From positions 1 through 64,000 of the forward strand of contig SBEH01000008.1 of assembly GCA_009668945.1 (NCBI GenBank): a DNA stretch of 64,000 nt, given 5' to 3'. Position numbers and translations under genes: made by a program. The stretch is from Actinomycetota bacterium (GTDB lineage: Bacteria > Actinomycetota > Coriobacteriia > Anaerosomatales > Anaerosomataceae). The notes below the pieces were generated by a model. The model did not search any database. It saw only the letters and a list, made by a program, of their open reading frames with translations, and was not told where the DNA came from. Within the stretch, counting starts at the first letter, position 1; every line of letters starts with the position of its first letter. Below are positions 26,763 through 50,163 of the stretch, piece by piece.

Positions 26763-29753
26763 CTAGGGCGTGTACGTCTTGGAAGCCGGGTGACACGTGC
26801 TCGTGCAGGTGTGTGTAGCGTGGCTGTAGGCCGTGATATCGCCGCTGGCGATGAGCCGCTGCCGCGTCGGCGATCCGTGGCTGACGTGGCATGTGGCACA
26901 TCCGAAGCCGTGAGTCTCGCTGTGGAGTTCGTGCAGCGGTCCGGCCACGGCGTCCCTGAAGCCACTTCCGGTCGCCGCAACCGTGTCGTCTGCCCCCGTG
27001 AAGTAGACACTGTACTTGTGGCAGCCGTAGCACAGACCGTCGGAATTGGACGGACGGGCGCCAAGATACGGCAGCCTCAGGATCGGCGCTTCGGCCGACG
27101 TATGCGGACCCGCAACAGCCGGAGCCGCTCCTGCAATCGAATGGCAGTCGATGCAGTACAGCCTCGATGCTTGCGTCCACGGCGCGACGAACGTGCCGAC
27201 GTTGATCGCGGTCGTGGCCGCCGCCTCGACCGCATGGAAGCTCACGTTGGCCGTATCGAACTGCGCCGAGACATCCGCCGCGCCCTCGAGCCCGGCCGGA
27301 TTCTGATACGCGGAGTGGCACTTGTAGCAGAGCTCGTACTCGTTGTTCACGGGCCTCACACCGGCAAGCGCCGCGGTGGCACCCGACGTGCCCCGGATGA
27401 GTCCGTACGCGGCCGGTGCGATCCCGGCGGTCGATGTCGCCTCATGAGAGTTGTGACAGTCGGCGCAGTCGACGTGCCGAACGAAGGGCGCGACCTCGGC
27501 TGCAACGTGCGCATCGGGGACCGCCGCCACCGGATGCCTAGACGGGCCCACGCCGCCGAAGTCCGCGAGCGCGAGCGACGGCGCGGTACCTGCGCGTTCG
27601 ACGCCACCCGCCGCCAGGAGCGTGGCGGAAGCGAACGACGTCTGGCCGACGTTGTGCTGGAATACCTGCAGGCTGGGCGGGGTGGCCAGGGCGCCGGTCC
27701 GGCTCCAGTAGCCGCCGTTGCCGACGACGAGCTCGGCGTACGTGTCGCCATCGATGTCGCCTGCCGCGAGTGATCCCGTCCCGAAGCCGGTGCCCGTGAC
27801 CCACGACTGCGCCGCCCCGAGTCCGCTCACGGTGCTCTGTGCGAAGACGTAGACCTGACTCTGACCATCGGCGCCGTTCGCCGCCACCGAGAGCTCGGCA
27901 CCCGAGGTGCCGACCGGCGTGGAGCCGGGAAGCACATCGGCAACCAGCGTCGCCCATGGCTTCGCGGTGCCCACGGCAGGCAGGGTCGCGCTGCCGATCT
28001 CGGTCCCAGCTGCGCTGTAGACGGTCACGTGATTGACCGCCTCATCGGCGTTGGCCACCGCGATCTCCACGCCCGCCGCGATGTCGATATCGCCGATGCT
28101 CGGTCCTCGCACGCCCGCCTTCGCCGCGATTGGCGCGATGAAGGGGGCAAGCGTCCCGGGTGTTACCGCCGATTCTGTGAGCACATGGATCCGGGAGCCG
28201 GCGGCATCCGTGATGACCAGCTCCGCGTACCCGTCGGCATCAAGATCTCCCGCGGCCATGCCGGTGAGGTTCGCGCCGAGACCCGCGACGGTGTCCAGCG
28301 ACAACAGGCCCAGCATGTCGTAGCGATACACGTAGAGCGTGCTGCCCGAGATGACGCAGATCTCCGGTCGCGTCGGAACTCCGTTGGCGATGACGTCGGC
28401 GATGACCAGGTAGTCGGCGATGCCACCGATCGCCAGCCCTGCCGGCTCCAAGAAGTACGACGAGAGACCCTTGAGGGGATCCGGTTCGAACACCGTCAAC
28501 CGAGCCGAAGCGGTGTCTGTCACAAGGAGGTTCTGCGAACCGTCGCCATCGATGTCGCCCGCCGCCAGCACGCCAGCGAGTCCGAGTGGCGCGTAGAGCC
28601 GCGGCCCCTGGACGGCACGAGGCACGGTCGTCGTGGCCTCGGTACTCCACAGCGCCACCGTGCTGGATCCGGCGGTCGTCGTCTCCGCCGAGAAACTGGC
28701 GACCAGCTCGAGATCGGGCGCGGACGCCGCCGGGTACTGCAGCGACACGAGGTTAGTGCTCGCAGCACTCGCGCCGTCATGGCAGTCGAGGCACAGCGCC
28801 GAAGGCTTCATCTCGAGCAGCGACTGGATCGGATTGCCGGTGCCGTCGTCGCGGCCCATGGGCGCGTGGCAGACCTGACACTCGCCGATCAGTCGCGGCG
28901 TGGCCGGCGCCGGCCATTCGCCGGGTATGGTGGCGGTCCGGTTCGAGACGTAGTGTGCCGAAACCGAATAGGCGGTCTTGCCCGGGAACGAGCGATATGA
29001 GTTCTCGTGGCAGGTGAGACAGAACGTCCGATTGTTCGCCGTGACCGTCAGCGTCGCGACGACCGACGGCGGCGTGACCCTCGCCGTCAGTAGCGGGGCC
29101 ACCGCCGAGCCGTGCCCCTGATGGCAGATGAGGCAGCGAACCTGCGTGCCGTCCGCGGGATTCGGCAGCGAACCGTAGTGGAGCGTCTTTTCGTACACGG
29201 ACACGCCCGGGAACCGGCTTGCCGGCCGCACCTGGTGACACGTCCCGCAGTACGCCGAGCCGCGGTATACCGCTGTGCCAACTGCCGTCCTTGCGCGCAG
29301 GAGCCGCGCGTACGGCACGCCCGGCGCGCTCTCGGCCGTTCCGTGGCTGTCGTGGCAACTGCTGCAGTACTTCACTGGGGGGCCGTATGGGCTCGCGGCC
29401 GGCGCGAGCGAGTGGGCCGAGACCTCCGCGAAATCGGCCCCGACGGGAGTGCCGGAGCCTAGGGCGTCGACGCCGTGGCAGACGTAGCACAGCGCGGTGT
29501 CCCCGGAATTCAGCGCCACTGCAAGACCGAGGGCGGTCGACGTCATCTCCCAGCTGCCCGGATCGATTCGGCCGAAGTCGCCGGCCGCCGTGTGCGCACG
29601 GTGACACATGGCGCAGCTGTCCGGCGTCGTCGAAGTCGCGACGTGAGGGGCGGCCGCGAGGGCCGGAAGGGGTGAAGCGAGCACGGAGAGCGCGCACACG
29701 AATGCTGCGCTCGTGATGACCGCTATGCGGCCGAGCCCCGTACCCCGGATCAT
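26763..29753 (-). CDS. Multiheme c-type cytochrome interrupted by an FG-GAP beta-propeller (14 haem sites)
   Basis: A 996-residue exported protein. A signal peptide (about 1-34, ending LPALAAA) is followed by eight CXXCH sites at about residues 45-325 (CAMCH, CYVCH, CSSCH, CGTCH, CLICH, CLTCH, CQVCH, CLDCH). A haem-free region of about 400 residues carries FG-GAP/integrin-like calcium repeats (GDIDGDGSQNLLVTD, GDLDADGYAELVITD, GDIDGDTYAELVVGN). A C-terminal group adds five CXXCH sites and one CX3CH (CTSTCH) near the end. The propeller may bind a partner or surface while the haem blocks carry electrons. The gene has its own candidate promoter. I do not recognise a characterised homologue with this order. 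Confidence 0.85.
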   Translation of the reverse strand: MIRGTGLGRIAVITSAAFVCALSVLASPLPALAAAPHVATSTTPDSCAMCHRAHTAAGDFGRIDPGSWEMTSTALGLAVALNSGDTALCYVCHGVDALGSGTPVGADFAEVSAHSLAPAASPYGPPVKYCSSCHDSHGTAESAPGVPYARLLRARTAVGTAVYRGSAYCGTCHQVRPASRFPGVSVYEKTLHYGSLPNPADGTQVRCLICHQGHGSAVAPLLTARVTPPSVVATLTVTANNRTFCLTCHENSYRSFPGKTAYSVSAHYVSNRTATIPGEWPAPATPRLIGECQVCHAPMGRDDGTGNPIQSLLEMKPSALCLDCHDGASAASTNLVSLQYPAASAPDLELVASFSAETTTAGSSTVALWSTEATTTVPRAVQGPRLYAPLGLAGVLAAGDIDGDGSQNLLVTDTASARLTVFEPDPLKGLSSYFLEPAGLAIGGIADYLVIADVIANGVPTRPEICVISGSTLYVYRYDMLGLLSLDTVAGLGANLTGMAAGDLDADGYAELVITDAAGSRIHVLTESAVTPGTLAPFIAPIAAKAGVRGPSIGDIDIAAGVEIAVANADEAVNHVTVYSAAGTEIGSATLPAVGTAKPWATLVADVLPGSTPVGTSGAELSVAANGADGQSQVYVFAQSTVSGLGAAQSWVTGTGFGTGSLAAGDIDGDTYAELVVGNGGYWSRTGALATPPSLQVFQHNVGQTSFASATLLAAGGVERAGTAPSLALADFGGVGPSRHPVAAVPDAHVAAEVAPFVRHVDCADCHNSHEATSTAGIAPAAYGLIRGTSGATAALAGVRPVNNEYELCYKCHSAYQNPAGLEGAADVSAQFDTANVSFHAVEAAATTAINVGTFVAPWTQASRLYCIDCHSIAGAAPAVAGPHTSAEAPILRLPYLGARPSNSDGLCYGCHKYSVYFTGADDTVAATGSGFRDAVAGPLHELHSETHGFGCATCHVSHGSPTRQRLIASGDITAYSHATHTCTSTCHPASKTYTP

Positions 29754-29821
29754 GTCACCGCCCAGCTGTCCCCAGGACGATCCGCCTCATACCGGCCGGC
29801 GCACCGTCACACTTTGCAGAC

Positions 29822-29850
29822 AGTATACGATGTCGACTCGCGCGTTTCAC
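29822..29850 (-). promoter_or_regulatory. Candidate promoter for the 14-haem cytochrome
   Basis: Minus-strand TATACT (29822-29827) lies 17 bp from GTGAAA (29845-29850). This matches sigma-70-type -10 (5/6) and -35 (4/6) elements at normal spacing. It sits about 70 bp before the ATG at 29753, in the largest gap of the downstream cluster. Confidence 0.5.
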
Positions 29851-29896
29851 CCACGAACTGGGCGAGATTCCCCCGGAGTCTCGTGCGCCAGAAGCG

Positions 29897-32071
29897 CTAC
29901 TGCCCGAGCCAGAACGCCGGGCCGTCGAGGCTGTATATGTTCGGCCACCTGGCGAGGACGTTGTTCCTCTCGGCCTCGCTTGCGGTGTAGAAGTGACTGC
30001 CGTTGCTCTTGTTGTAGAACCGGTAGACCGGCACGCTGTTCGCCACCGGCCCCGGGTTCACCGCGTAGGTGGGCCCGTCCATCGAGAACGTCCCGGGCCA
30101 CCTGGCAAGCGCGTTGGCGGCCTCACCGGCGCTTGCGGTGTAGAAGTGGCTGCTGCTGACACGGTTGTACAGGCGAGTGAGCGGTGTCGTGTTGTTGGCC
30201 GGGTTGAGGTAGTACGCCACGCCCTCGTCCTGGAAGATGTGCGGCCACGTAGCGTTCACGTTGGCGCGCTCGGCGGCCGAGTCGGTGTAGAAGTGCGTGT
30301 TGTTCGTGAAGTTGTAGAAGCGGTACACGGGCACGGGGACGGGAGGAGGCGGCGGGGTGCTGCCACCTGAGACCGTGACGGTGATCGTCTCGGAGGCGGT
30401 CGCTGCGCCGTCGGAGACCACGACGGTGATCGGGTAGGTGCCGGGTCCCTGCGCCTCGGTGGGCGTCCAGGTGAAGGAGCCGCCGGAGGTGATGGCCGCA
30501 CCCGTCGGAGGGGTGCCTGAGAGGGAAAAGATCAGCGTCTGGGCCGGGATGTCGGCGTCTGTGGCCGTCGCGGTGAAGGACAGCAGCGAGCCTTCGGCCA
30601 CGTTCTTGTTGCCGATGGCGGCAAGGACGGGGGCGGTGTGGACCTCCGAGACCGTGACGGTGATCGTCTCGGAGGCGGTCGCTGCGCCGTCGGAGACCAC
30701 GACGGTGATCGGGTAGGTGCCGGGTCCCTGCGCCTCGGTGGGCGTCCAGGTGAAGGAGCCGCCGGAGGTGATGGCCGCACCCGTCGGAGGGGTGCCTGAG
30801 AGGGAAAAGATCAGCGTCTGGGCCGGGATGTCGGCGTCTGTGGCCGTCGCGGTGAAGGACAGCAGCGAGCCTTCGGCCACGTTCTTGTTGCCGATGGCGG
30901 CAAGGACGGGGGCGGTGTTCTGCGGTCCGCCGGTCGCCTGACGCCACGTGAGGCCGTCGGTGGTGAGAAGAACGGTTCCGGACGCGCCGACCGCCCATCC
31001 TATCGTGGTGCCGGGCCGGAACTCGACGTCGTAGAGCGCGTAGGGATTGCCGCCTGTGATCGTGCACGCAGCCCAGGTCGCACCGCCGTCCGTCGTCCGC
31101 ACGATGGTGCCGTCCGAACTCGCAGCCCAACCTTTGGCCGCATCGGTCATGTCGACTGCGGTCAGCACCGCAGTGCCCGCGGTTGCCGCCGAGGCCGTCC
31201 ACGTCGCGCCACCGTCCGTCGTGTAGTACACGACGCGGTTGCCACCCACGACTTGCCCCACCGTGATGCCGGCGGTCGCGGAACCGAAAGAGACGCCCTC
31301 CAAGCGCAGGTCGTTGGTGCCGAACCCGGTCACCTTGGTGTACGAGACGCCACTGTTCGTCGACTTGAACAGCGGGTACTTCTCGACATTCGCGGTATCG
31401 AGAGTCCAGTAGTCGATACCACATGCCCAGATCGTGGATCCCGCATACTCCACGTCGAGCAACTCACCACGGCCCACATCGTAGTACTGGTCGATGATCA
31501 GGTACCTGTGCGGCTTGGTCTCGTAGAACGGGTTGCCCCAGTACCGCAGGTTGCCCGCCGACCCCATCGACGTCCCACCGGTCCAGGTTCCGTCATACGG
31601 GGAGATGTCGCCGGCCGCGGTGATGGCGGCCATGCCGCCGACCTGGCAGGCCACATCGTTGTGACTTCTACCCGTTGCGTCGAGTAACCCGCCGTCCATC
31701 GAAACGTACGGAGTGAAGTCAACGTTCGTCCACGTCGCACCGCCGTCGCTGGTCGAGGCCACTTTGCCGGCGTGGTCGACCGCAACGCCGGTTGCCGAGT
31801 TCCAGAAGTCGATGCCCCGAAACGAGTACGTGTCGGCGCCGCGCACCTGGGTCCAAACGTCCCCACCGTCTGTGGTCTTCATGATCACGCCGTTGTCGGC
31901 CGCCGCAAACCCCGTCGTGTCGCTCGTGAACGTCACCGACGTTAGGCTGCCCGTCGTTACACCCGCGGCCTCAACACCTGATGCCGGGGGCATGCTGGCC
32001 GTCGGCAGGACAGCGGCGACCATGCTGGCAGCAACCAGCGCTGTGAGTCGATTTCTGACGCGGGCAGACAC
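29897..32071 (-). CDS. Secreted Ycf48-like propeller / Ig / DUF5648 surface protein
   Basis: A 724-residue exported protein. After a signal peptide, residues about 40-375 form BNR/Ycf48-like blades (repeated TTDGG-type turns such as KTTDGGDVWTQV, STSDGGATWTNV, RTTDGGATWAAC). Two almost identical Ig-like (He_PIG type) modules of 93 residues follow at about 382-568. A proline linker (GGSTPPPPPVPVPV) leads to three DUF5648-type repeats with YRFYN...HFYT signatures, ending FWLGQ. GTG at 32071 has GGAGG 12 bases upstream. No enzymatic residues are recognised. It is probably an adhesion or scaffold protein on the cell surface, 27 bp after the NHL gene. Confidence 0.8.
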   Translation of the reverse strand: MSARVRNRLTALVAASMVAAVLPTASMPPASGVEAAGVTTGSLTSVTFTSDTTGFAAADNGVIMKTTDGGDVWTQVRGADTYSFRGIDFWNSATGVAVDHAGKVASTSDGGATWTNVDFTPYVSMDGGLLDATGRSHNDVACQVGGMAAITAAGDISPYDGTWTGGTSMGSAGNLRYWGNPFYETKPHRYLIIDQYYDVGRGELLDVEYAGSTIWACGIDYWTLDTANVEKYPLFKSTNSGVSYTKVTGFGTNDLRLEGVSFGSATAGITVGQVVGGNRVVYYTTDGGATWTASAATAGTAVLTAVDMTDAAKGWAASSDGTIVRTTDGGATWAACTITGGNPYALYDVEFRPGTTIGWAVGASGTVLLTTDGLTWRQATGGPQNTAPVLAAIGNKNVAEGSLLSFTATATDADIPAQTLIFSLSGTPPTGAAITSGGSFTWTPTEAQGPGTYPITVVVSDGAATASETITVTVSEVHTAPVLAAIGNKNVAEGSLLSFTATATDADIPAQTLIFSLSGTPPTGAAITSGGSFTWTPTEAQGPGTYPITVVVSDGAATASETITVTVSGGSTPPPPPVPVPVYRFYNFTNNTHFYTDSAAERANVNATWPHIFQDEGVAYYLNPANNTTPLTRLYNRVSSSHFYTASAGEAANALARWPGTFSMDGPTYAVNPGPVANSVPVYRFYNKSNGSHFYTASEAERNNVLARWPNIYSLDGPAFWLGQ
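30369..30918 (-). repeat. Tandem 279-bp repeat encoding two identical Ig-like modules
   Basis: The segment 30369-30639 recurs at 30648-30918, a 279-bp period equal to 93 codons. By eye I find no mismatch over about 271 bases, including third codon positions. The reading frame is kept. Such identity points to a recent duplication or ongoing gene conversion. Confidence 0.95.
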
Positions 32072-32098
32072 CTCGAAATCATTCCTCCGTGATGTCGG

Positions 32099-33274
32099 TC
32101 ACGTGTTCGTGCTGCTAGGGGGCGTGTCCTCGACTATAGCAGCTTCCGCGCCCAACCGCCGTCTCGGCCAGAACGCGCCCGCGACCGCGGCGAGACTGGC
32201 CGCCATCAGCATCAGCCCGGAGAGTCGCATGGGCGAGAGTCGCAGCTTCTCTGCGACGGCTCGCACCCCGAACGACTCGGCAGGCCACTGCACGGACCAG
32301 ACTTGCACGCGCGCGTTGCCGGTGTCCGCCACGAACAGCTGGCTGCTCTGTGCGTCGTACACGACATCATTCGGATACGCCAACTGACCGGCTGCAGAGC
32401 CCGGAGCGCCGTAGCGCGTGACCTCAGAGCCGTCGGTGTCCAGCAACACAATCTCGCTCGCGAGCGCGTCGACCACAGCAACGTACGTTTTGCCTTGATC
32501 GCCCTCGAGGAAGGCGAGTCCTCGCGCGATGCCGTTGACCCGCACGAGTCGCTGGAACGCGCCCTCGCGATCGAACACTAGTACGCGGCGGTTGTTGCCG
32601 TCGCTGACCCATATGGTGTCGTCGCCGAACGCCACTGCGTTCGGGAAGTCCAACGCGACGGAGACATCGCCCGGGACAGCGGTGGCCTCCGCGCTACCCA
32701 GCGAGAACCGCACCTCGCCGGCGCGGTTCATGACCACCATGCGATGCCGTCCGGAGCTGTCGGTCACTGCCACCGAGCCCTCGCCGTCGCACGCCACACC
32801 GAGCGGCCCCCAGGTAGGGGTGCTCTCATTCGATGGCCGCAGATCGTCAAGACGAACGCCCTCAGCCGAGAATCTCAAGACTGACCGCGTCTCCCGGTCC
32901 ACCACCAGCAGCGTTCCGGTGGCGTTGTCACTTGCTGCGTACGCGGGCACCACCAGCGCACCTCGGCCGATCTCACCAAGATCGAACCCCGCCACCGAGA
33001 ACACGCGTACGACCGCCGCTTCGGAATCGGACACGTAGATACGACCATCGCCGACTGCGAGTCCGACCGGACGGATCAGCGGCGCATCCCCGGCATCGGG
33101 TAGGGACCTCACGTACGAGAGGCTCGGCGCCGCCTCGCCAACAGGAGAGACGGTGGGCACGGCCACCTTCGCCGCAGGCGCCAGAATCGCGATCGCCGCG
33201 CCCGCAAAGAGCGCCGTTGCTCCCACGGCGAAGACGACACGCCGGGGTCCTTCGAGCCGCAAGGTCAGCCGCAT
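32099..33274 (-). CDS. Membrane-anchored NHL-repeat beta-propeller protein
   Basis: A 391-residue protein with an N-terminal helix (about 14-33). The NHL propeller (about 55-335) has blades such as RPVGLAVGDGRIYVSDSE, FPNAVAFGDDTIWVSDGNN and YPNDVVYDAQSSQLFVADTG. A C-terminal helix (LSGLMLMAASLAAVAGAF) and a short charged tail follow. ATG at 33274 has AGGGG seven bases upstream; a TTG at 33277 is an alternative. It lies 9 bp after the lipoprotein gene. It is related in layout to the larger NHL protein at 42768-44348. The ligand or partner is unknown; proximity suggests assembly with the cytochromes. Confidence 0.85.
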   Translation of the reverse strand: MRLTLRLEGPRRVVFAVGATALFAGAAIAILAPAAKVAVPTVSPVGEAAPSLSYVRSLPDAGDAPLIRPVGLAVGDGRIYVSDSEAAVVRVFSVAGFDLGEIGRGALVVPAYAASDNATGTLLVVDRETRSVLRFSAEGVRLDDLRPSNESTPTWGPLGVACDGEGSVAVTDSSGRHRMVVMNRAGEVRFSLGSAEATAVPGDVSVALDFPNAVAFGDDTIWVSDGNNRRVLVFDREGAFQRLVRVNGIARGLAFLEGDQGKTYVAVVDALASEIVLLDTDGSEVTRYGAPGSAAGQLAYPNDVVYDAQSSQLFVADTGNARVQVWSVQWPAESFGVRAVAEKLRLSPMRLSGLMLMAASLAAVAGAFWPRRRLGAEAAIVEDTPPSSTNT

Positions 33275-33283
33275 CAAGCGCCC

Positions 33284-34120
33284 CTACTTCGCGATGCTCT
33301 CGACCACGGCGAACACGTCGTTCAGGAGACCCTCGCCGGATGCGCCGGTGGCGTGCAGCTCGACGATCACGGTCACCGCGCCGTCCGTGAAGACCGCGGC
33401 CGCGAACTGACCATTCGAGCCCGCAACAACCGCGTGCCCACCGATCGTCTTCTCCTGCCGCGCGTCCGGGTACTCGGTCGCGATCGCCGCCTGGGCCGCT
33501 TCTGCGGCCTTGGCGTCGATTCGCTGCTCGACCTCGATCATCAGCTGGTCCGCCGTGCTGCTTGTGGGAATGTACTGCCTGCTGAGTGACGCCATGTCCG
33601 CCAGTATCCCCTGCGCAGCGTAGCCGTTGATCGCGTCCGGCACGTACTTGGTGAGGCTCACGACGGGACCCGTCGGTTCCGCGGCCGGGTCCTCGGGAGT
33701 CGCGTCGCCACCTGGTGTGGCGGGATCATCGATCGGGTCGACGGCCGGCGTCTGCCCGGCGTCGATCGCGTCGGCCTGCTCCTTCGCCTTGCGGTAGGTC
33801 GGGTCGCGGTCGATCACCGTCTGCAGCCGCTCGCGGGCCGTAGCGAGGTCGCCTGCGGCAAGCGCGTCCTGCGCCTGCGCGTACAGCGCGCCCAGGTCAC
33901 CGTGCACCTCGCAGGTGATGACCTTGGTGGTCACGCCGTACTCGCCCACCTTGCTCTGCGGGACCTCGATCTCCTTCGTGTTGTCCTCGACGATCTCGCC
34001 GGCAGTGCATATGACGATCTCACCAGTCTTCATCTTGACCTTGCGCTGGCAGCCCGTGAGGGGTACGAGCAGACCGAACAACACGACGACGACCAGCGCA
34101 ATCGTCAGGAACTTCCTCAC
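33284..34120 (-). CDS. Lipoprotein with TPR-like segment, unknown function
   Basis: A 278-residue exported lipoprotein with a hydrophobic signal and lipobox LTGC (Cys near residue 24). A short helical repeat (LYAQAQDALAAGDLATARERLQTVIDRDP) looks like one TPR unit. An acidic Pro-rich linker (PAVDPIDDPATPGGDATPED) and a C-terminal alpha/beta domain follow. I do not recognise the C-terminal domain. The start overlaps the upstream membrane protein stop by four bases (ATGA), so the two are probably made together. Confidence 0.75.
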   Translation of the reverse strand: MRKFLTIALVVVVLFGLLVPLTGCQRKVKMKTGEIVICTAGEIVEDNTKEIEVPQSKVGEYGVTTKVITCEVHGDLGALYAQAQDALAAGDLATARERLQTVIDRDPTYRKAKEQADAIDAGQTPAVDPIDDPATPGGDATPEDPAAEPTGPVVSLTKYVPDAINGYAAQGILADMASLSRQYIPTSSTADQLMIEVEQRIDAKAAEAAQAAIATEYPDARQEKTIGGHAVVAGSNGQFAAAVFTDGAVTVIVELHATGASGEGLLNDVFAVVESIAK

Positions 34121-35565: not shown

Positions 35566-35590
35566 AGACGCTTCCGGTCTGAGAACCAGC

Positions 35591-35628
35591 GAAGGGGAAG
35601 GGCCGGGGCGAGCCCGGCCCTTCCCTTC
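35591..35628 (-). terminator. Strong hairpin between the 6-haem cytochrome and the membrane protein gene
   Basis: GAAGGGAAGGGCCGGG pairs with its complement, with one bulged base, around a short GC-rich loop. It begins 36 bp after the cytochrome stop. The following bases (GCTGGTTCTC) are only mildly T-rich. It may be an intra-operon terminator or a stabilising 3' end that lowers expression of the downstream genes relative to formate dehydrogenase. Confidence 0.7.
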
Positions 35629-35664
35629 TCGCGTGTCGTCTGGCTCAGACGTCACGAACACCTC

Positions 35665-42343: not shown

Positions 42344-42580
42344 GCTCTTCCCTTCCGTTCAGCGGGTCCATAGAGGAACCACCCCTGGCCCCCCCATGGG
42401 GACCACACACACGCGCGAGATGCCGGCACGCCTCCTTTCTTGAGCGTTGCAGCTTCGTCGGGAAACGCAAAGACCGACCAAGCGCGCCATCACGGCACCG
42501 CATAGCCGGTCTGATTACGTCTTGCACACCTCCCTTACCCTGGAAGTCGACCGCACACCGGGCCCCGCCGGAGGGGCCTT
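42344..42580 (-). other. Remainder of the long 5' leader of the formate dehydrogenase operon
   Basis: About 240 nt between the riboswitch core and the ATG at 42343. It holds the GGCCCC/GGGGCC hairpin at 42561-42578. It also holds an AAAGGAGG-like stretch near 42430-42440 that is too far from the start to be its ribosome-binding site. A weaker AAGGGAAG lies just before the ATG. I see no protein-coding gene in it. Confidence 0.6.
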
Positions 42581-42690
42581 CCTGCAGTCTCCTTTCCAAG
42601 TCGGGAGGCGCCATTGTTTCCGCTGACACCCTGATCGGCTTGCCCGCCGTAGCGCTGCGTGCGCCTTAGGCGCGACAAGCTCGGAGACGA
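42581..42690 (-). promoter_or_regulatory. MoCo (molybdenum cofactor) riboswitch in the formate dehydrogenase leader
   Basis: On the minus strand the leader contains CTCCGAGC, a GCGCC-TAA-GGCGC hairpin, GCAAGCCGATCAGGG, then GGAAAC..CGCCTCCCG..TTGGAAAGGAG. The CGCCTCCCG...TGGAAAGG block matches the core I remember from the E. coli moaA MoCo leader. The outer helix closes: GTCTCC (42683-42688) pairs with GGAGAC (42587-42592). A second GC-rich hairpin, GGCCCC/GGGGCC at 42561-42578, follows and may be the expression switch. The downstream gene is a molybdopterin enzyme, which fits. Confidence 0.75.
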
Positions 42691-42727
42691 TATTCGGTTG
42701 TACCTGCTGCCTTGCCTCAACTTCCTT

Positions 42728-42767: not shown

Positions 42768-44348
42768 CTACTCAGTGTCGTCCGGAGTGTCAATCCTCGA
42801 CTCAGGACTACGCCGCTGAGCGGCCGAACCCTTTCGCCGGACGGCGAATTCGCGAATGAAACGCTCCCGGTCGACAACGACGATATCCAGTGCCCGGGCA
42901 GCCTCGGCGAGAGTCGCGTCCTCGGTGGCAAGCCGGCCAGTGCGTTCGGCCATGGTGAGGATGATGGCGGTCTTCTCGTCGGCACCTGACTGTTCGACGA
43001 ACTCGCCCACGTCGGTGCGGGAGAAGGGTTCGCCGACGAGCAGCTCCCCGAAGCGCACCTCACCGGACCTGCGATGCAGGTACCGATCGAACAGGTCCTG
43101 GGTCACAATCCACTTGAACTTGCGGTTGTCCATCCGCGAGACCGCGCCTGCGGCGATCATGCCCTCGATGAAGTCCTCAGTGGTCATGAACGACGTGCGG
43201 CGGCGCAGCAGCGGCAGTAGGAGCAAGAGCAGCGGCGAGAGGCAGATGCCCCATTCGGCGGGCTCCTCAGGCAACGCAACCGGCGGGATTATGCCGGTCG
43301 GCCAGCCCCAGACCTGCACCTGGTTGTTCTCGCGGTCGCTCACGAACATCCGGCCGGTCTCATCGAGTGCGATGTCACTAGGGAAGCGGAACCGGCCTGG
43401 CTGCACACCCGGTCCGCCAAACCCGGTCTTGCGTTCGCCCGTGAGATCGTAGACGTCGATCATGTGCGCGAACGGGTCGGCCACCAGCAGGCGCTGCTCG
43501 CGATCCACGACCAGCCCCAAAGGCGAGCCTGACGTGTAGACGAGATACTTGAACTCGCCGTCGTGCGAGAACACCTGAACGCGATGGTTGCTCATGTCCG
43601 AGATGAACACGTCGCCCTCGGCCGAGAAGGCGATGCCGTTGGGATAGTAGAAGCCCCCGGGCGAATCCGTCATCTTGGCCGCCTGCACCGTCTTGCCGAA
43701 TCTCAACAGCTCGTTGCCCTCGGCATCAAACTCGAGGATCTGGTGCTGTTCGCTCAGTCCGAGATCCGCGACCCAGAGATTGCCGTCCTCATCGAAGGCG
43801 AGTGCGCAAGGGGCCCAGTACTCGATGACGTCGCTGTTCGGGATGAACTCGCGAATGAACGACCCGTCCTCCGGGCTGAACACGAAGATGCCGTGGAGGT
43901 GCCGGTCGGTGACCCACACGTTCCCGTCGGGCCCGATCACCACGCGCTGCGGAAGCTTGAGCTTGTCACCGGTGTCGCTGACGACCGAACTGAACGTGAA
44001 CAGGTAGTCGCCATCGGTCGTGTAAGCGCGTACGACGCGGCTCTGCGCATCGACGACGAACACCTTGCCGTCACCGGTCACGGCCACGCCGACCGGCATC
44101 ATCAGCGCGTCGGCGCCCTCCGGACCGGAGATCGCGTACAGGAACTCCGGCGCCTCTGTCGTTCCCTCGGTAAGCGACTTCACCGGCGGGAACGGCAGCC
44201 GTCGATTCGCCGAGTAGTACATGGTCGTCCACAGCAGCAGCATCAGAAGCACGACCAGACCTAGCAGCAGGGCCAGCTTGCGCACACGATCGTGCTTGCG
44301 CTTCCTGCCTGCGTAGTCCGTGATCTTCTCGATCGAGCGGTCGGTCAC
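42768..44348 (-). CDS. Transmembrane NHL-propeller protein with cytoplasmic PIN-like domain
   Basis: A 526-residue protein. A basic N-terminus and helix (about 24-46) lead to an extracytoplasmic NHL propeller (about 60-370) with blades such as MPVGVAVTGDGKVFVVDAQ, LPQRVVIGPDGNVWVTDRH and FPSDIALDETGRMFVSDREN. A second helix (WGICLSPLLLLLLPLL, about 375-392) returns the chain to the cytoplasm. The last 130 residues look PIN-like: FKWIVTQDLFDRYL, GADEKTAIILTMAERTGRLATEDATLAEAARALDIVVVDRERF. PIN domains are usually metal-dependent RNases. Some acidic positions are kept, but the usual first Asp is not obvious. It is the last gene of the upstream cytochrome cluster. Confidence 0.8.
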   Translation of the reverse strand: MTDRSIEKITDYAGRKRKHDRVRKLALLLGLVVLLMLLLWTTMYYSANRRLPFPPVKSLTEGTTEAPEFLYAISGPEGADALMMPVGVAVTGDGKVFVVDAQSRVVRAYTTDGDYLFTFSSVVSDTGDKLKLPQRVVIGPDGNVWVTDRHLHGIFVFSPEDGSFIREFIPNSDVIEYWAPCALAFDEDGNLWVADLGLSEQHQILEFDAEGNELLRFGKTVQAAKMTDSPGGFYYPNGIAFSAEGDVFISDMSNHRVQVFSHDGEFKYLVYTSGSPLGLVVDREQRLLVADPFAHMIDVYDLTGERKTGFGGPGVQPGRFRFPSDIALDETGRMFVSDRENNQVQVWGWPTGIIPPVALPEEPAEWGICLSPLLLLLLPLLRRRTSFMTTEDFIEGMIAAGAVSRMDNRKFKWIVTQDLFDRYLHRRSGEVRFGELLVGEPFSRTDVGEFVEQSGADEKTAIILTMAERTGRLATEDATLAEAARALDIVVVDRERFIREFAVRRKGSAAQRRSPESRIDTPDDTE

Positions 44349-44361
44349 AAAGTCACGCTCC

Positions 44362-45381
44362 CTACGGCGTTGTCGTTGCGGAGTCCAGCGCGGCCAGCGC
44401 TTCGGTGGCCTGCTTGTCGTTAGGTACGAGTTCTAGCAGGCGCTCCCATGCGGCCCGCTCATCGACCGGGCTATCCAGCTTGCCCAGCAGCTGCGCAACG
44501 AGTCTTGCGGCATCCACGTTCGTCGGCTCCAGCGCCGCGGCTATCCGCGCCTCCACGAGCGCCGCCGTCGGGTCGGATTCAACGAGAGACCTGGCCGCCA
44601 GCAGACGCTCCTCGCATGGCCCCAGCGCGACGAGCGCCTCCATCGGCTCGGGCTGACCGGGTGCAGCGTCGACCGACCGGCGGAACAGCTCCGCTGCCAT
44701 GGCTTCGTCACCGTCTGCAAGATACAGCAGCCCAAGGTCGTAGCATGCCTCGGGCATGTTGGGCACGAACATCAGAGCGGTCTCGAGCGACTCGCGCTGC
44801 TTGTCGACCGAGCCAAGCTCCCGGTAGGCCACCGAGAGCGCGTAGTGCGTGTCTGCATCTGCGCGTTTGATGCGCAGCGCCTCCTTGAGATAGGAGACCG
44901 CGTCTTCGTACTCGGCGAGCTTGATCAAGACAGTGCCGTAGTAGTAGTAGGCACGCTCAAGCCGCTCATCTTGGGCGGCGTACTCGTTCTTGCGTAGCAC
45001 CTCGATCGTGTTCCGCCAGTAGCCTTCGGCGGTGCGCCACTCCTCCTGCTGCATGGCGACAAGCGCTAGGCCGCTCAGAGCCAGCGGGTGGTCCGGCGAC
45101 AGCTTGAGCGCCTCTTCGTATTGCTCGATCGCCTTGGCAGGCCGACCGGTATCGCGGTACGCGTCGCCAAGAAGAATGCGCGCGGCGACGTTCTCCGGCT
45201 CGGCGGTGACCGAGGCCTCGAGTGCTTCGATGGCACGCTCGGTTACAGAGCTGTTCTCCACCTGACGTTGCCCGCTGTAGACGCTGTACGCGAGGAAGAC
45301 GAGTGCTCCGATGACGAACAAGCCGACGATACGGATCGCCCACGTGAGCCAGGGGTCGCGCATTGAGGATACTCGGGCCAA
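44362..45381 (-). CDS. Membrane-anchored TPR protein
   Basis: About 339 residues. After an N-terminal helix (about 12-33, AIRIVGLFVIGALVFLAYSVY) there are roughly seven tetratricopeptide repeats (for example AARILLGDAYRDTGRPAKAI, YYYGTVLIKLAEYEDAVSYL, CYDLGLLYLADGDEAMAAEL). TPR proteins scaffold complexes; similar ones accompany cytochrome c maturation (CcmI/NrfG type) and cytochrome assembly. A TTG start at 45381 is chosen because AGGAGG lies five bases upstream. ATG at 45363 lacks a ribosome-binding site. It lies 23 bp after the 20-haem cytochrome gene. Confidence 0.85.
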   Translation of the reverse strand: MARVSSMRDPWLTWAIRIVGLFVIGALVFLAYSVYSGQRQVENSSVTERAIEALEASVTAEPENVAARILLGDAYRDTGRPAKAIEQYEEALKLSPDHPLALSGLALVAMQQEEWRTAEGYWRNTIEVLRKNEYAAQDERLERAYYYYGTVLIKLAEYEDAVSYLKEALRIKRADADTHYALSVAYRELGSVDKQRESLETALMFVPNMPEACYDLGLLYLADGDEAMAAELFRRSVDAAPGQPEPMEALVALGPCEERLLAARSLVESDPTAALVEARIAAALEPTNVDAARLVAQLLGKLDSPVDERAAWERLLELVPNDKQATEALAALDSATTTP

Positions 45382-45404
45382 GCGTGCCTCCTGATGTGTG
45401 GTGT

Positions 45405-46997
45405 CTAGAGCAGGTCCTTGTGACAGCGGAGGCACAGCTCGGCGCCTCTGTACGGGGCGATCAGAGCGTTCTCGAAGTCGAGCGCTCCGTGGCATTCGTA
45501 GCAGATGCGCATGTCGTGCGGACCGGTAGCGGGACTCAGGATACGCACTCCGCCGACACCGAATCCGATGTGGCAGTCTTCGCACTTGTAGGGCTCGCCC
45601 TTCTTCTCGGGCAGCGCCACCTGGAAGTGTACTGCGTGCTCTGCCAGGCCGGCGTTCTGGATGTCGGTGGGCGGATCGGTCGCCATTTCCTCGTGACACT
45701 TCACGCAGTTCTCGAGGACGAGGTCCGCCGACCGTACGGTGCTGTGGTGGCAGTCCTGGCAGACCTCGCGGTCGGTGTGACACACGCCGCAGTCCTTGGC
45801 GAGCGAGCCATTGCCCTGCGCGTGGTCGGCAAGCCACGTCGCCGGGTGAGGCATCGTGGTCTGGTGGCACTGTTGGCAGTACTCGGAGGTGTGGCAGACC
45901 ACGCACAGGCCCTTCTGCTCCAGGTAGAGCCCGCCGTGCTCCTTGCTCCACTCGGGACCCTTGTGACTGTCGGGGATGACCATTTCCCCCTTGCGCCCGT
46001 CAGCGAGCTTCGTGCCACCGTTGTGGCACTCCACGCACGAGGCCGGAGCATGGCACTGCGCGCAGTACGCCGGATCGCTCGTCGCGGGGTCCTTGTGCTT
46101 CCCCGATAGGAATTCGACCGTGTGGTCGGGAGGCGTGAGATTGAACTCGGCGGTGTGGCACTTGAGACAGTCCGCGGCAGCCACCAGACCGCTGCCGTTG
46201 TGTGTGAGGCCGTGACACCGCGTGCAGTCGCGCATCGGCGGACGCTTGGTGCCGTTAGGACCGTGCGGGAAGGACGTGTGACATGCCTCGCATCGGTACG
46301 CGCGCTCGAGGTGCTTCGCGTGTGCGAACACGAGGCCGTCCACCGAGAAAGCGTCGATCCTCGGATGACAGTACACGCACTGTGAGATCGACACCGGCGC
46401 GGCGAGGTCCACTGACGCCGCGGGCCGGGTGGACGCCTTCGGCAGGGTGCTCAGGTAGATCGTCGGCATCGGGCCGATCTCTACACCGGCCTCCTGGTGG
46501 CAGACGTCGCAGTCCTCGGGCGGGTTGTGGCACATCAGGCACGTGTTCACGCCTCCCGCAGACGCGTCCGCGTGGGGCTTTGCCGGCCAGTCCTCGACGT
46601 GCGATGCAGGCCTCAGCGTGAATCCAGCCGGGTGACAGTCTGCGCACTGGCCGGAGGCCAGTGCGCCCATCGGCCCGTGGAACAGCCCGTGACACGTGAA
46701 GCAAGAAGGCATCTCCGGCGTCGCCGGGACGCCGCCCTCGTGCGCCGGCCGGTTGTGACAGGCGGTGCACTGGGTGAGCAGGTGCGCGGCGTGGTCGAAG
46801 ATGACGTTCGGGTTCCGGGACGCGCCAGGCTCCGGATGGCAAGGTGAGCAGGTCTCGCCGGTGGCCGGCGCGCTCACGTTCACGACACTGACTTCACCGA
46901 CCGCCGGTGCGTGCGGATACGCGAGCGTCACAACGACGGCAGCTGCTATCGATGCCGTCGTTGTGATCCAAAGGCGTGCTCGCGTCTTCCTCTGCAT
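45405..46997 (-). CDS. 20-haem c-type cytochrome
   Basis: A 530-residue exported protein with an N-terminal signal or anchor (about 8-30). It has twenty CXXCH motifs at near-regular spacing from CSPCH near residue 50 to CLRCH at the C-terminus. That is about one haem per 24 residues, typical of nanowire-like electron conduits. Many extra histidines (for example FDHAAH, FAHAKH, DHAQGNG) can serve as distal ligands. No enzymatic domain is seen. It is placed 8 bp after the 12-haem gene and should be a periplasm- or wall-spanning relay. Confidence 0.93.
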   Translation of the reverse strand: MQRKTRARLWITTTASIAAAVVVTLAYPHAPAVGEVSVVNVSAPATGETCSPCHPEPGASRNPNVIFDHAAHLLTQCTACHNRPAHEGGVPATPEMPSCFTCHGLFHGPMGALASGQCADCHPAGFTLRPASHVEDWPAKPHADASAGGVNTCLMCHNPPEDCDVCHQEAGVEIGPMPTIYLSTLPKASTRPAASVDLAAPVSISQCVYCHPRIDAFSVDGLVFAHAKHLERAYRCEACHTSFPHGPNGTKRPPMRDCTRCHGLTHNGSGLVAAADCLKCHTAEFNLTPPDHTVEFLSGKHKDPATSDPAYCAQCHAPASCVECHNGGTKLADGRKGEMVIPDSHKGPEWSKEHGGLYLEQKGLCVVCHTSEYCQQCHQTTMPHPATWLADHAQGNGSLAKDCGVCHTDREVCQDCHHSTVRSADLVLENCVKCHEEMATDPPTDIQNAGLAEHAVHFQVALPEKKGEPYKCEDCHIGFGVGGVRILSPATGPHDMRICYECHGALDFENALIAPYRGAELCLRCHKDLL

Positions 46998-47005
46998 CTA
47001 CTTTG

Positions 47006-48301
47006 CTACTTGCCTCCATCGCCGAAGGAGAGCAACTTAGCAAGCGGGTTCTTGGCCTTGACCTCGGACTGGCCGTGGATCATCTCCGCGGTCTGTGTCA
47101 CGAAGCCCTCGGTGGCGTCCTTGTGCTGGTGGCAGCCGATGCCGGTCGAGGCGTCGCCGGCGCACGTGGAGGCCACCTTCGCGTCGTTGGTGGAGGACAC
47201 AGGGTCGTCCGACGGTTGCGTAGAGTGCGCGGGATGGCAGTCCCAGCACGCCGGGGCATCTAGCGCGCCCATCTTGTACGCGGCGCCGTGGTACGGGTCG
47301 CTGTAGTTCTCCCAGCGGTCCTCGTGACACCGCGCGCACATCGCCTGACCGGCAAGCTGCAGATCGTCCCTCGCTGCCTGGGTGTCCAGCCGCTTGATCG
47401 TGTGCCCGCCGTGACAAGAGCCGCAGGTGGCGGACTTCAAATCGCCGTCGGCGATCTTCGTGCCGTGGATAGACGCCTGATAGGCGGTCAGCTGGTCCTC
47501 GTTCTTGTCCGTGGCCGGGTCGTCCTTGTCGTGGCACCCGGCCTTCGCGCATGCCATTCCGGCGTTGACGGACCAGACCTTGGTCTGGCCCGGCACATCG
47601 GCATAGGCGAAGTCGACGTGGCATTGGGGGCACGTGAGATCGCGGTGAGCCGATGCCTCAAGCCCGACGACCTGGAACGACTTGATCCCGAGTGCGGAGG
47701 TCTTGATCAGGTTCGGATTGCCGTGACAGGCCAGACATCCCGAGCCGGCGTCGTAGACCATCGGCTGCGGGGGCGTCCACCAGACGCTCTTGGCGGCGTG
47801 GCACTCGTCGCATTGCACCTGCGTGTGGCACATCGAGCACTGCGTGGTGAGGCGCTCCTGCGAGGGGACCACGTGTCCCTTGCCCGCCCAGTCACCCACG
47901 TGGAACGCGGGCTTGAGGCCGGGGAGATTGTTGCCATGGCAGTCGGTGCAGGTACCGGTAGCGATGACGCCCTGCGGACCGTGGTTGAGCCCGTGGCAGT
48001 TCCAGCACTCCTTCATCACCGGCAGATCGGTGCCTTCCGGCTTGTGCGGGAATTCGGGATGGCACGTACGGCACTCGTACGTGATGTGATTGCCGTGCGT
48101 GAAGATGTACTTGGGGTGCTTGTCCGTCTGCGTGTAGTTCGCGTGGCACGGCGTGCACTTGCCCGAGTACACGTCTCCGCTGATGTCGATGGTGAGCGCC
48201 CGCGCCAGCGCGGGCACGGCCAAGACGGCTGCCAGAACGAGGGCCGCTATCACCGCGCGCCTGGCACTCATGCCGGTGAGTGCTCCGAATCGCTTCGCCA
48301 T
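47006..48301 (-). CDS. Multihaem c-type cytochrome (about 12 haem sites)
   Basis: A 431-residue exported protein with a signal peptide (LVLAAVLAVPALARA) and eleven CXXCH motifs. It also has one CX4CH (CAKAGCH, as found in tetrahaem c3-type cytochromes) and a CX9CH near the C-terminus whose haem binding is doubtful. Its C-terminal part (CARCHEDRWENYSDPYHGAAYKMGALDAPACWDCHPAH to IHGQSEVKAKNPLAKL) is clearly homologous to the next gene upstream. ATG 48301 is used; ATG 48271 would also leave a good signal peptide. It probably relays electrons between the smaller cytochrome and the 20-haem protein. Confidence 0.9.
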   Translation of the reverse strand: MAKRFGALTGMSARRAVIAALVLAAVLAVPALARALTIDISGDVYSGKCTPCHANYTQTDKHPKYIFTHGNHITYECRTCHPEFPHKPEGTDLPVMKECWNCHGLNHGPQGVIATGTCTDCHGNNLPGLKPAFHVGDWAGKGHVVPSQERLTTQCSMCHTQVQCDECHAAKSVWWTPPQPMVYDAGSGCLACHGNPNLIKTSALGIKSFQVVGLEASAHRDLTCPQCHVDFAYADVPGQTKVWSVNAGMACAKAGCHDKDDPATDKNEDQLTAYQASIHGTKIADGDLKSATCGSCHGGHTIKRLDTQAARDDLQLAGQAMCARCHEDRWENYSDPYHGAAYKMGALDAPACWDCHPAHSTQPSDDPVSSTNDAKVASTCAGDASTGIGCHQHKDATEGFVTQTAEMIHGQSEVKAKNPLAKLLSFGDGGK

Positions 48302-48343
48302 ACCCCTAGACCCGCCCTCTCTGTCGTTAGACGCGCCCCGCGT

Positions 48344-49291
48344 CTACGTGTCATCCCCACCGCCGAAGAGGCGGCCGATCGCATCGCCGATCGAACGGAA
48401 GAACTTCAGGATCGGATTCTCGGCCTCCACGTCCGGACGTCCATGGATGAAGGCCGCGTACTCCGTGTAGTTCTCGTCGACGCCGTTGTGACACCCTTCC
48501 TGACCGCACGTCTCGACAAGGTGAACCTCGTTCACCTTCGAATCGCGGTTCTTGGAAGGCTGGATGTCGTGCCATCCATGGCAGTCCCAGCACGCCGGCG
48601 CGTCTTCGGCACCGAGCTTGTATGCGGCACCGTGGTAGTAGTCGCTGTAGTTGTCCCAGTAGTCCTCGTGGCAACGCCCGCAGACCTGCCAGCCCTGCTG
48701 GTGCAGCTCCGCTTTGCCGTCCTTCCAGTCCTCCCCGCCCTTCTCGGTGAGCGCGAGCATCCCGTGGCTGCCATGGCAGTCGCCGCACAGCGGCTTGGGC
48801 CCGACGGAGGTCTCGGTGGACGCATCGGCGGCCGGAACGGCGACAGCGCCCGCGCTCGCCGCGGCGGAAACATCGACGGTCTGCCGATGGACGCCTGCGC
48901 CGAGGGCCTTCGACTGGTCGGCATGGCAGTTCCTGCATGCCGACTTGGCCGTGATCGGCCAGTCTGCCGCCTCATGCGGCGCCGTGTAGGCGAAATCGAT
49001 GTGGCAGCCGACGCACTGCGTGTCGGCGTGAGTCGAGGTGCGCAGTTGCTCCTCGTTGATGAAGAAGCTCACGACGGCGCCCTCGCGCACGCGCACGAGC
49101 GCCGGGTCGCCGTGGCACACCAGACAGCCGGACCTTGCGTCGGAGGGCAGCGTGAAGTCGAGCTCGTAGGGGGCGGTCGCCGACGTTTCAGCGGCCGGCA
49201 CGGCCTCCTGCGCGACGGCTGCGGCAGACACACCGAGAGCCGCCCACAGAACGCATCCTACAGCGAGAGCGCGTGTCCCCCAGCGGCGCAT
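48344..49291 (-). CDS. 7-haem c-type cytochrome, paralogue of the neighbouring 12-haem protein
   Basis: A 315-residue exported protein with a signal peptide and six CXXCH sites (CLVCH, CVGCH, CRNCH, CGDCH, CGRCH, CWDCH) plus one CX4CH (CGQEGCH). The block CGRCHEDYWDNYSDYYHGAAYKLG to ENPILKFF parallels the 12-haem cytochrome, so the two arose by duplication with gain or loss of haem blocks. ATG 49291 has GGAG upstream. It directly follows the b-type cytochrome gene (8 bp) and is the likely first c-haem acceptor from it. Confidence 0.92.
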   Translation of the reverse strand: MRRWGTRALAVGCVLWAALGVSAAAVAQEAVPAAETSATAPYELDFTLPSDARSGCLVCHGDPALVRVREGAVVSFFINEEQLRTSTHADTQCVGCHIDFAYTAPHEAADWPITAKSACRNCHADQSKALGAGVHRQTVDVSAAASAGAVAVPAADASTETSVGPKPLCGDCHGSHGMLALTEKGGEDWKDGKAELHQQGWQVCGRCHEDYWDNYSDYYHGAAYKLGAEDAPACWDCHGWHDIQPSKNRDSKVNEVHLVETCGQEGCHNGVDENYTEYAAFIHGRPDVEAENPILKFFRSIGDAIGRLFGGGDDT

Positions 49292-49299
49292 TCCGTCTC

Positions 49300-50163
49300 C
49301 TACTCCGCTTCCGCAGCGAGCACCGGCGCGCCGTGTTCTCCGTGGTCGCCATGCTCCGCATGCGCCTTCGCCTTGGCCTCCTCGATCAGGTGGTCTGGAT
49401 ACCGCTTGAAGCCGAAGAAGTCGAGGCTGATCAGCAAGTCCTCGTTCAGAGCGAGGTAGAAGTGCACCGTGGTGATGATGATGAAGAGCCAGTTGATCGC
49501 GTAGTGCACCACCCGGATCCAAGCGCCGGCGATGGCGACATCGCCGAGCATCGCGCCGAGCCACCAGCCGACGAGAACCTCGCGCGGGCTGTAGCCGAAG
49601 AGGATCGGCTGCGTCAGCAGCGCAAGTCCTGTGAAGCCCTGGAGGAGCATCAGGCCGAGGAACACAAGGTAGGTCAGCTTCTGCATCACGTTGTACTCGG
49701 CGACGTGAGGCTTGCTGTTCGAGAGATACGCGTAGTACATCGCTACGCCACCCATGGATTGCATGTCGCGGCGCCCTACGGCGAACTTCTTCCAGTCACG
49801 GTCCTTCGCGAAGAAAGCGTACCAGATCCGCCAGAAGAGGTTCAGCAGGACGATCGTCATCGCGACGTAGTGGATGTAGCGCATCGGGGTCCGCCAACCC
49901 GCGTAGGTGGGGAACCGGATGTACAGGCCGGAGGCCGCCAGAGCGATCATGCACGCGAGATGGACCCAGTGCATGAGCTTCGGAAGGAACGGTGCGCGGT
50001 GGTCGTGGTCCGGCCACTTCCACTCGATCCACTTCTTGCGGAAGCGCCCCTTGGGCATTCCCACGAAGAAGTGCAGGACCATGGCACTTGCGGTAGCGAT
50101 CCACAGGATGAAGAAGATCGCGTCCATCCAGACGTTCACCTTCGCGAGCAGAATCGCAAACAC
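49300..50163 (-). CDS. Membrane b-type cytochrome (cytochrome b561 / Ni-Fe hydrogenase cytochrome b-like)
   Basis: A 287-residue protein with five or so membrane helices. It has histidines in the helical regions LPKLMHWVHLACMIAL, YIHYVAMTIVLL and VVHYAINWLFIIITTVHFYL, which suit two b-haems. The C-terminus is a His/Glu-rich cytoplasmic tail (AHAEHGDHGEHG). It would link the quinone pool to the cytochromes encoded behind it. GTG at 50163 gives the longest form; a GTG at 50139 (NVWMDAIFF) is an alternative. A good promoter lies about 150 bp upstream, so this is the first gene of the cluster. Confidence 0.85.
   Translation of the reverse strand: MFAILLAKVNVWMDAIFFILWIATASAMVLHFFVGMPKGRFRKKWIEWKWPDHDHRAPFLPKLMHWVHLACMIALAASGLYIRFPTYAGWRTPMRYIHYVAMTIVLLNLFWRIWYAFFAKDRDWKKFAVGRRDMQSMGGVAMYYAYLSNSKPHVAEYNVMQKLTYLVFLGLMLLQGFTGLALLTQPILFGYSPREVLVGWWLGAMLGDVAIAGAWIRVVHYAINWLFIIITTVHFYLALNEDLLISLDFFGFKRYPDHLIEEAKAKAHAEHGDHGEHGAPVLAAEAE

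Follow-up and report, generated by a model that had tools for sequence, protein, structure and literature searches.

Sec-containing, TAT-exported formate dehydrogenases (FDHs) with an Fe-S partner are known from Desulfovibrio (FdhAB/FdhABC3) and E. coli (FdnG), and FdhABC3 includes a multihaem c subunit as well. The locus described here shares the exported Sec enzyme and its Fe-S partner but differs from these systems in a six-haem cytochrome (c6), a cytb gene 7 kb away and an FDH with an inserted propeller. The best solved relatives of this FDH are 9qm0, 8cm4, 6sdr and 1kqf. In Geobacter, CbcL/CbcBA pair a b-type cytochrome with a multihaem c cytochrome and serve Fe(III) reduction at low potential (PMC9129911). 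In architecture, this pairing is matched here by cytb (PF01292, invariant His) and the adjacent seven-haem c7, with a cell wall in place of the Geobacter outer membrane. Multihaem cytochromes also characterize the Gram-positive EET sets of Carboxydothermus, Thermincola and Dethiobacter, in the last of which they cluster with NHL and TPR proteins (PMC10376724); FDH, a Moco riboswitch, c6 and the polytopic protein are unreported for these clusters in the available parts of the literature.

Two papers bear on the locus more directly. Parvivirga hydrogeniphila can use formate or H2 as donor for growth, with Fe(III) as acceptor, and its cluster MCL4079376-90 was noted in 2022 as a candidate determinant of Fe(III) reduction (PMC9686372). 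This is almost certainly the same cluster as ours: among its 15 loci, FDH (383) and FdhB (382) are flanked by six genes in one direction and seven in the other, which reproduces the present layout gene for gene when FKBP is included. The available text names some of the genes only and does not cover riboswitch, modules, hydrogenase variant, embedded propeller or distribution. The same source describes a Gram-positive type wall in cultured relatives and no Fe(III) reduction by A. tenue; a genome tentatively matched to A. tenue lacks the island. In EMTCatB1 at a biocathode (PMC7943316, 2021), genes 1c0406-1c0408 likewise encode FDH, FdhB and an adjoining multihaem cytochrome. With locus tags mapped to island genes by adjacency to FDH, FDH, FdhB and c6 fell in the top 10% of transcripts, and c6 alone among the five cytochromes is reported in the most abundant ones, so the two halves of the island may be unequally expressed. 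That report, in its available part, treats the genes as FDH only and leaves the remainder of the cluster undiscussed. Because of these accounts from 2021 and 2022, the view of an earlier note on this DNA that no characterised system has this set needs qualification; in their available parts, neither paper dissects the cluster.

Gene content of the island

Within the 64,000-nucleotide window, the whole stretch of DNA analysed, we delimited a 15-gene island on the minus strand (Table 1). It comprises 14 genes at 26763-50163 with almost no spacing between them, all recognized previously as co-directional, and an FKBP gene that had been overlooked and that has cytb as its neighbour in 13 of the family's island regions. 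Encoded are a di-haem b cytochrome, five multihaem cytochromes, a TAT-exported Sec FDH, and TPR and propeller proteins. To the four beta-propeller proteins described before, we add a fifth propeller, embedded in the FDH. Seven His residues of cytb are invariant across 19 orthologues, and the inner transmembrane (TM) segment of NHL1 recurs in 32 of 33. For the polytopic protein, which certain genomes of another class encode in two parts divided near aa 340, Foldseek on the AF2 model returned 5i20 (TMt 0.7); a role as NrfD/PsrC anchor is unsupported, the best fold match being DMT/EamA-like. Among the annotated island genes there was no outer-membrane beta-barrel family of the kind that marks MtrCAB/PCC porin-cytochrome systems.

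Table 1 Features of the island, listed in the direction of transcription.
Feature	Coordinates	Strand	Evidence
FKBP/SlyD-like prolyl isomerase, probable first island gene	50369..50809	-	ORF, 146 aa
cytb, di-haem b-type cytochrome, PF01292 (HydC/FdnI-like)	49300..50163	-	Pfam E 7e-20
c7, heptahaem cytochrome	48344..49291	-	6 CXXCH + CX4CH
c13, 13-haem cytochrome (c12 of the earlier note)	47006..48301	-	11 CXXCH + CX4CH + CX9CH
c20, 20-haem cytochrome	45405..46997	-	20 CXXCH
TPR protein, hydrophobic segment at N-terminus	44362..45363	-	Pfam + orthologue comparison
NHL1, NHL propeller with N-terminal and inner TM segments, C-terminal domain	42768..44348	-	NHL E 2e-31
Moco/tungsten riboswitch RF01055, leader of FDH half	42571..42699	-	67.9 bits (gathering score 36), E 3e-14
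FDH catalytic subunit: TAT signal, Fe4S4, Sec	37880..42343	-	Pfam; Sec TGA 41710-41708
Sec UGA + SECIS-like hairpin, GGUCU apical loop	41661..41722	-	MFE -28.8 kcal/mol, z -2.7
GH43-like five-bladed propeller embedded in FDH, ~aa 580-862	39758..40606	-	AF2 pLDDT 76; VIA Z 19.3
FdhB, Fe-S subunit, C-terminal TM helix	36990..37862	-	Pfam/NCBIfam profiles
c6, 6-haem cytochrome, presumed FDH electron acceptor	35665..36990	-	6 haems
Polytopic protein, 10-TM DMT/EamA-like domain + 4-TM domain	34117..35661	-	AF2 pLDDT 87
Lipoprotein	33284..34120	-	lipobox LTGC
NHL2, NHL propeller, TM at N- and C-terminus	32099..33274	-	profile match; TM check in orthologues
Ycf48-like propeller + Ig-like repeats + DUF5648, secreted	29897..32071	-	profile match
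c14, 14-haem cytochrome: 8 haems, FG-GAP propeller, 6 haems; secreted	26763..29753	-	13 CXXCH + CX3CH

Haem sites of the multihaem cytochromes

A recount of motifs gave 56 CXXCH sites in the five cytochromes (6, 11, 20, 6 and 13) and four variants, namely CX4CH in c7, CX4CH and CX9CH in c13 and CX3CH in c14, in agreement with the earlier tally of motifs. The total is thus 60 haem sites distributed as 7, 13, 20, 6 and 14, which corrects only the protein previously thought to bind about 12 haems. We regard the variants as real because each aligns with a haem site in relatives, where it appears as CX2CH, CX4CH or CX9CH: the CX9CH of c13 lies opposite CX2CH/CX4CH, and the terminal motif of c14 is CX3CH in 18 of 19 orthologues and CX4CH in the remaining one. 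The same alignments rule out sequencing errors as the source of the odd spacings. Counts are constant in all complete orthologues of c20, c6 and c14 (20, 6 and 13+1) and in nearly all of c7 and c13 (7 and 13); 60 sites in five proteins with conserved counts rule out chance motifs. With a possible kinship to polymerising cytochrome nanowires of the OmcS/OmcE type in view, sequence searches at the thresholds applied found no solved relatives of c20, c14 or c13.

Formate dehydrogenase and its embedded propeller

The catalytic subunit has the TAT signal, Fe4S4 domain, molybdopterin domains and active-site Sec of Sec-FDHs (FdnG/FdhA). Its earlier description as a TAT-exported selenoprotein dehydrogenase is borne out, as regards Sec, by the in-frame TGA, present in all relatives covering that site, the SECIS-like hairpin, a tRNA-Sec gene and alignment of the Sec position with solved Sec-FDHs. 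The match to the NCBIfam equivalog TIGR01553 (FDH-N alpha) falls into five stretches with insertions between them and scores 407.8 bits where the cut-off is 814.2, so we class the protein as a relative of that family and not as an FDH-N equivalog. The C-terminal TM helix of FdhB is retained in 35 of 38 orthologues.

One insertion is predicted to adopt the fold of a five-bladed GH43 propeller, its model scoring VIA Z 19.3 over 231 residues and Foldseek E 4e-8; a search against PDB sequences gave no significant match. Such propellers occur in FDHs of five of 69 order genomes at two different sites, the homologues in four other FDHs being inserted at aa ~163. Repeated placement of a sugar-hydrolase-like propeller in different loops of a selenoenzyme is uncommon in its own right. 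The catalytic Asp/Asp/Glu triad of GH43 is not conserved, which leaves an active glycosidase unsupported; D55 is the single acidic column shared by all five inserts. An intein or chimera is disfavoured, as the insert is in frame, all-beta and GH43-like, with homologues only inside FDHs within the order.

Two modules and a hydrogenase variant

The RF01055 riboswitch, on the same strand as FDH, divides the island in two and also precedes FDH in 29 of the 32 relatives examined. The upstream half, module 1, comprises cytb-c7-c13-c20-TPR-NHL1; module 2 consists of the riboswitch, FDH, FdhB and c6, followed by the surface parts. At seven or more other loci, and also in genome G037, module 1 is instead followed by an exported [NiFe] hydrogenase and a related 6-haem cytochrome (HydS-HydL-c6), and another genome (G328) unites hydrogenase, c6, Moco riboswitch and FDH in one cluster. 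The earlier note's reading of a formate-linked multihaem island holds, and the island is conserved as one unit, but its halves are separable, the upstream one also occurring with a [NiFe] hydrogenase and the other being led by a separate Moco riboswitch. From its junction with the hydrogenase in relatives, the island resembles an electron conduit with exchangeable fuel enzymes, and module 1 looks like a separate, general conduit for which FDH and [NiFe] hydrogenase would be interchangeable. The hydrogenase variant allows donor and conduit parts to be told apart by comparative genomics alone, with c6 as the predicted adaptor.

Proposed electron path and alternatives

Taken together, the island probably encodes a two-module extracytoplasmic chain that passes electrons from formate to multihaem cytochromes. 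Module 2 would oxidise formate outside the membrane, where the C-terminal helix of FdhB may tether the FDH, and electrons would run from Sec/Mo(W) through the FeS centres and FdhB to c6. The cytb/c7 pair would exchange electrons with the membrane, probably with the quinone pool as in Geobacter CbcL/CbcBA; c13 and c20 could carry them through the wall, towards a wall or surface end putatively formed by the secreted c14-FG-GAP, Ycf48-like and NHL2 propeller proteins and the lipoprotein, with the propellers as putative parts for docking or for binding the wall. Several findings weigh against the quinone step: UbiA homologues here are MenA-like but under the curated cut-off, the futalosine route is absent here, and quinones were undetected in the two isolates of the P. 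hydrogeniphila study (PMC9686372). In relatives, the [NiFe] hydrogenase with its own c6 would attach to the same module 1. Formate oxidation with Fe(III) or another outer acceptor appears the most likely physiology, while a reverse run at a cathode is possible. A broader proposal is more tentative and, in our judgement, somewhat doubtful: a wall-spanning Actinomycetota conduit in which module 1 takes electrons from either exported enzyme via a dedicated c6 adaptor, and in which the propeller, grafted into FDH at two alternative sites in some lineages, docks to wall polysaccharide or to the conduit. For Gram-positive wall electron transfer, a largely open question, the island offers a fixed parts list that is conserved across the order and traceable in the phylum; with one probable cultured carrier growing on formate and Fe(III), the question becomes testable.

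Mo/W Sec-FDHs of this family are reversible, and electrons might instead enter from outside (cathode, Fe(II) or partner cells) for the FDH to make formate from CO2 and so supply the reductive glycine pathway. We consider this unlikely as the main role. It would suit an FDH that is the sole molybdopterin oxidoreductase (PF00384) of the genome, and two reports would fit it, one assigning the homologous FDH to CO2 reduction (PMC9686372), the other describing EMTCatB1 from a biocathode enrichment, where FDH-FdhB-c6 expression was high (PMC7943316). However, TAT export means that formate would arise outside and require import, no formate channel was found within the island, and the cultured relative uses formate as donor (PMC9686372).

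Less probable still is an ordinary FdnGHI-like respiratory enzyme, in which FDH-FdhB would deliver electrons to cytb and on to quinone, while the multihaem genes would belong to a separate pathway that adjoins by chance. The FdnH-like C-terminal helix of FdhB, the HydC/FdnI membership of cytb and the occurrence of module 1 without FDH would fit this arrangement. Gene positions argue otherwise: cytb sits beside c7 within module 1, 7 kb from FDH, and accompanies module 1 to the hydrogenase loci, while within the order FdhB is immediately followed by c6, as HydL is by a c6 of its own. In addition, FDH and c20 co-occur completely within the family (together in 14/14 genomes, jointly absent from 13/13; Fisher p 5e-8).

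Conservation and loss of the island

In support of the two-module chain, both the gene order and the numbers of haem sites are maintained throughout the order Anaerosomatales (41 genomes with an FDH), the co-directional order being kept in every contig of sufficient length; c20 was present in 47 of the 69 order genomes. The joint occurrence of FDH and c20 in the family, the module swap, the status of FDH as the genome's sole PF00384 protein, the physiology of P. hydrogeniphila and A. tenue, and the cathode expression of FDH, FdhB and c6 speak for the same chain; that c6 alone of the cytochromes is reported among the most abundant transcripts speaks against it. Other classes of the phylum, reached by a profile search with the polytopic protein, contain a rearranged cluster with c6 upstream of FDH. 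Lack of a conserved gene order had been named as grounds for abandoning the idea of one system; order is in fact conserved within Anaerosomatales and partly beyond the class. Scanning genome contigs for exact FdhB peptide patterns yielded 30 loci with Actinobacteria/Coriobacteriia titles, weak evidence of taxonomic restriction because the patterns were exact.

The patchy presence of the island and the clean empty sites of relatives, even within the genus, might point to a selfish element or a recent transfer that lacks any unified role. This reading is very improbable given the same flanks throughout the family (birA/bioY/mre11-like), the order-wide and phylum-wide gene order, the invariant haem counts and an instance of loss. 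In that genome (G007), a deletion scar fuses the FKBP N-terminus to the remaining half of c14, which shows, as read from the sequence, that the island was lost there and not gained.

A conserved two-part island

All 14 genes of the electron-transfer island proposed in the earlier note from the sequence alone were present at the expected places on the minus strand, with gaps mostly near zero; the observation was real, and its conservation proved far stronger than the sequence alone could reveal. Because an FKBP gene precedes the di-haem b-type cytochrome (cytb) and recurs in 13 island regions within the family Anaerosomataceae, we count 15 genes. The sole large gap, between NHL1 and the Sec formate dehydrogenase (FDH), is retained in relatives. 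With a Moco riboswitch in this gap (matched in 29 of the 32 upstream regions tested; no match in genomes G051, G063 and G073), the FDH half has a regulated leader of its own.

Locations of features discussed in the text
Feature	Location	Context
Moco riboswitch		inside ~450-bp NHL1–FDH gap
FKBP gene	50369-50809	precedes cytb
Haem synthesis and cytochrome maturation genes	6015-17411	~9 kb from island
c14/FKBP fusion	L210:11711-13318	G007, adjoining bioY
424-aa protein	L211:247-1518	next after c6
Hydrogenase large subunit (L227)	G000:C11:162162-163655	genome of the window
Moco riboswitch	L186:12810-12954	G328, between hydrogenase-linked c6 and FDH

Among 69 Anaerosomatales genomes, FDH occurred in 41 and the 20-haem cytochrome c20 in 47. 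Within the family, 14 genomes held both and 13 lacked both (Fisher p 5e-8, uncorrected for relatedness). The birA, bioY and mre11-like genes are contiguous in island-free G077 (same genus as the window), G047, G013 and G093. In G007, a relative from the genus holding EMTCatB1, an in-frame fusion joins the FKBP N-terminus to what remains of c14, its C-terminal half, an apparent island deletion scar. A polytopic-protein profile also recovered the cluster outside the class Coriobacteriia, ordered cytb-c7-c20-TPR-NHL1-c6-FDH-FdhB-polytopic protein-lipoprotein, with c14 in two of three long loci. The polytopic protein itself (model pLDDT 87) comprises a 10-TM DMT/EamA-like and a 4-TM domain, split by a stop near residue 340 in G365, G502, G541 and G328, and may be a permease or scaffold.

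Exchange of the proposed electron-donor module

Seven FDH-less loci (L211, L212, L219, L220, L223, L224 and L225) carry cytb-c7-c12-c20-TPR-NHL1, or only c20-TPR-NHL1, followed by a TAT-type [NiFe] hydrogenase (small, then large subunit) and a 6-haem cytochrome. Both donors share one contig in G037 (FDH-FdhB-c6-polytopic protein-lipoprotein, then TPR-NHL1-HydS-HydL-c6) and a single cluster in G328, from another class (NHL1-HydS-HydL-c6-riboswitch-FDH-FdhB), so the riboswitch–FDH pairing extends beyond the class. This swap is the strongest evidence that the upstream half may be a common conduit and c6 its adaptor. The 424-aa protein after the hydrogenase-linked c6 in L211 lacks a Pfam match; ORFs of similar size follow c6 in L223 and L219. 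In the genome of the window, an in-frame TGA makes the [NiFe] hydrogenase large subunit of L227 a possible second selenoprotein.

A propeller embedded in the formate dehydrogenase

The suggested TAT-exported selenoprotein was borne out by TAT, Fe4S4 and molybdopterin domains, an in-frame TGA that all relatives covering the site share, a hairpin with GGUCU in its loop after this codon and a tRNA-Sec gene. FDH is the sole PF00384 protein of the genome, and Desulfovibrio FdhA and E. coli FdnG are its nearest solved relatives. Of 38 FdhB orthologues, 35 carry a C-terminal TM helix.

FDH residues ~580-862 are absent from most relatives. Four other FDHs, among them one from the same genus, carry homologous domains (25-32% identity, E 4e-14 to 3e-9) at residue ~163; the domain occurs in only 5 of 69 order genomes, once each and always within FDH. 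Its AlphaFold2 model, from only four sequences, is all-beta (pLDDT 76, pTM 0.76) and resembles five-bladed GH43 propellers in both Foldseek (E 4e-8) and VIA (Z 19.3, rmsd 3.2, 231 residues) comparisons. No conserved catalytic triad was seen across the homologous inserts, which suggests that binding or docking is more likely than hydrolysis. In L049 (G101:C316), one of two tandem FDH genes carries the residue-~163 propeller and the other lacks it.

Haem sites

The island encodes the 56 CXXCH motifs first noted, plus two CX4CH, one CX9CH and one CX3CH, 60 sites in all; c12, put at about 12 haems, has 13. The variants align with true haem positions, where relatives read CX2CH, CX4CH or CX9CH. Counts are constant in every complete copy of c20 (20), c6 (6) and c14 (13+1), and in nearly all copies of c7 (7) and c12. 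Elsewhere in the window lie hemA-D-like genes, identified by reading, and a System I-like maturation set (CcmA, CcmB, CcmC/CcmF-type).

Relation to known systems and electron flow

The island would be a case of multihaem extracytoplasmic respiration fed by FDH, a kind already known. The earlier note knew of no characterised counterpart, yet PMC9686372 describes a 'peculiar' P. hydrogeniphila cluster (MCL4079376-90; FDH, MCL4079382-3). Its FDH-FdhB pair lies between a group of six genes and a group of seven; counted from FDH, these positions equal those of our island exactly, FKBP included. The literature searched appears to contain no description of either the modular donor swap or the embedded propeller.

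In the best-supported reading, which we consider probable, formate would be oxidised outside the membrane by FDH and electrons would pass through FdhB to c6. The latter would exchange electrons with the upstream half, cytb and c7 coupling the chain to the membrane and c20 and c14 delivering at the surface. Flow in the reverse direction is a serious if rather unlikely rival. No futalosine pathway gene was found in the genome, and two UbiA homologues, nearest to MenA, score below cut-off. According to PMC9686372, quinones were not detected in the isolates P. hydrogeniphila and A. tenue; the former, with a Gram-positive type wall, uses formate or H2 as donor with Fe(III), which A. tenue is unable to reduce. 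EMTCatB1 (L101, G003) carries the entire island, and at a cathode its FDH, FdhB and next multihaem cytochrome ranked in the top 10% of transcripts, as reported in PMC7943316.
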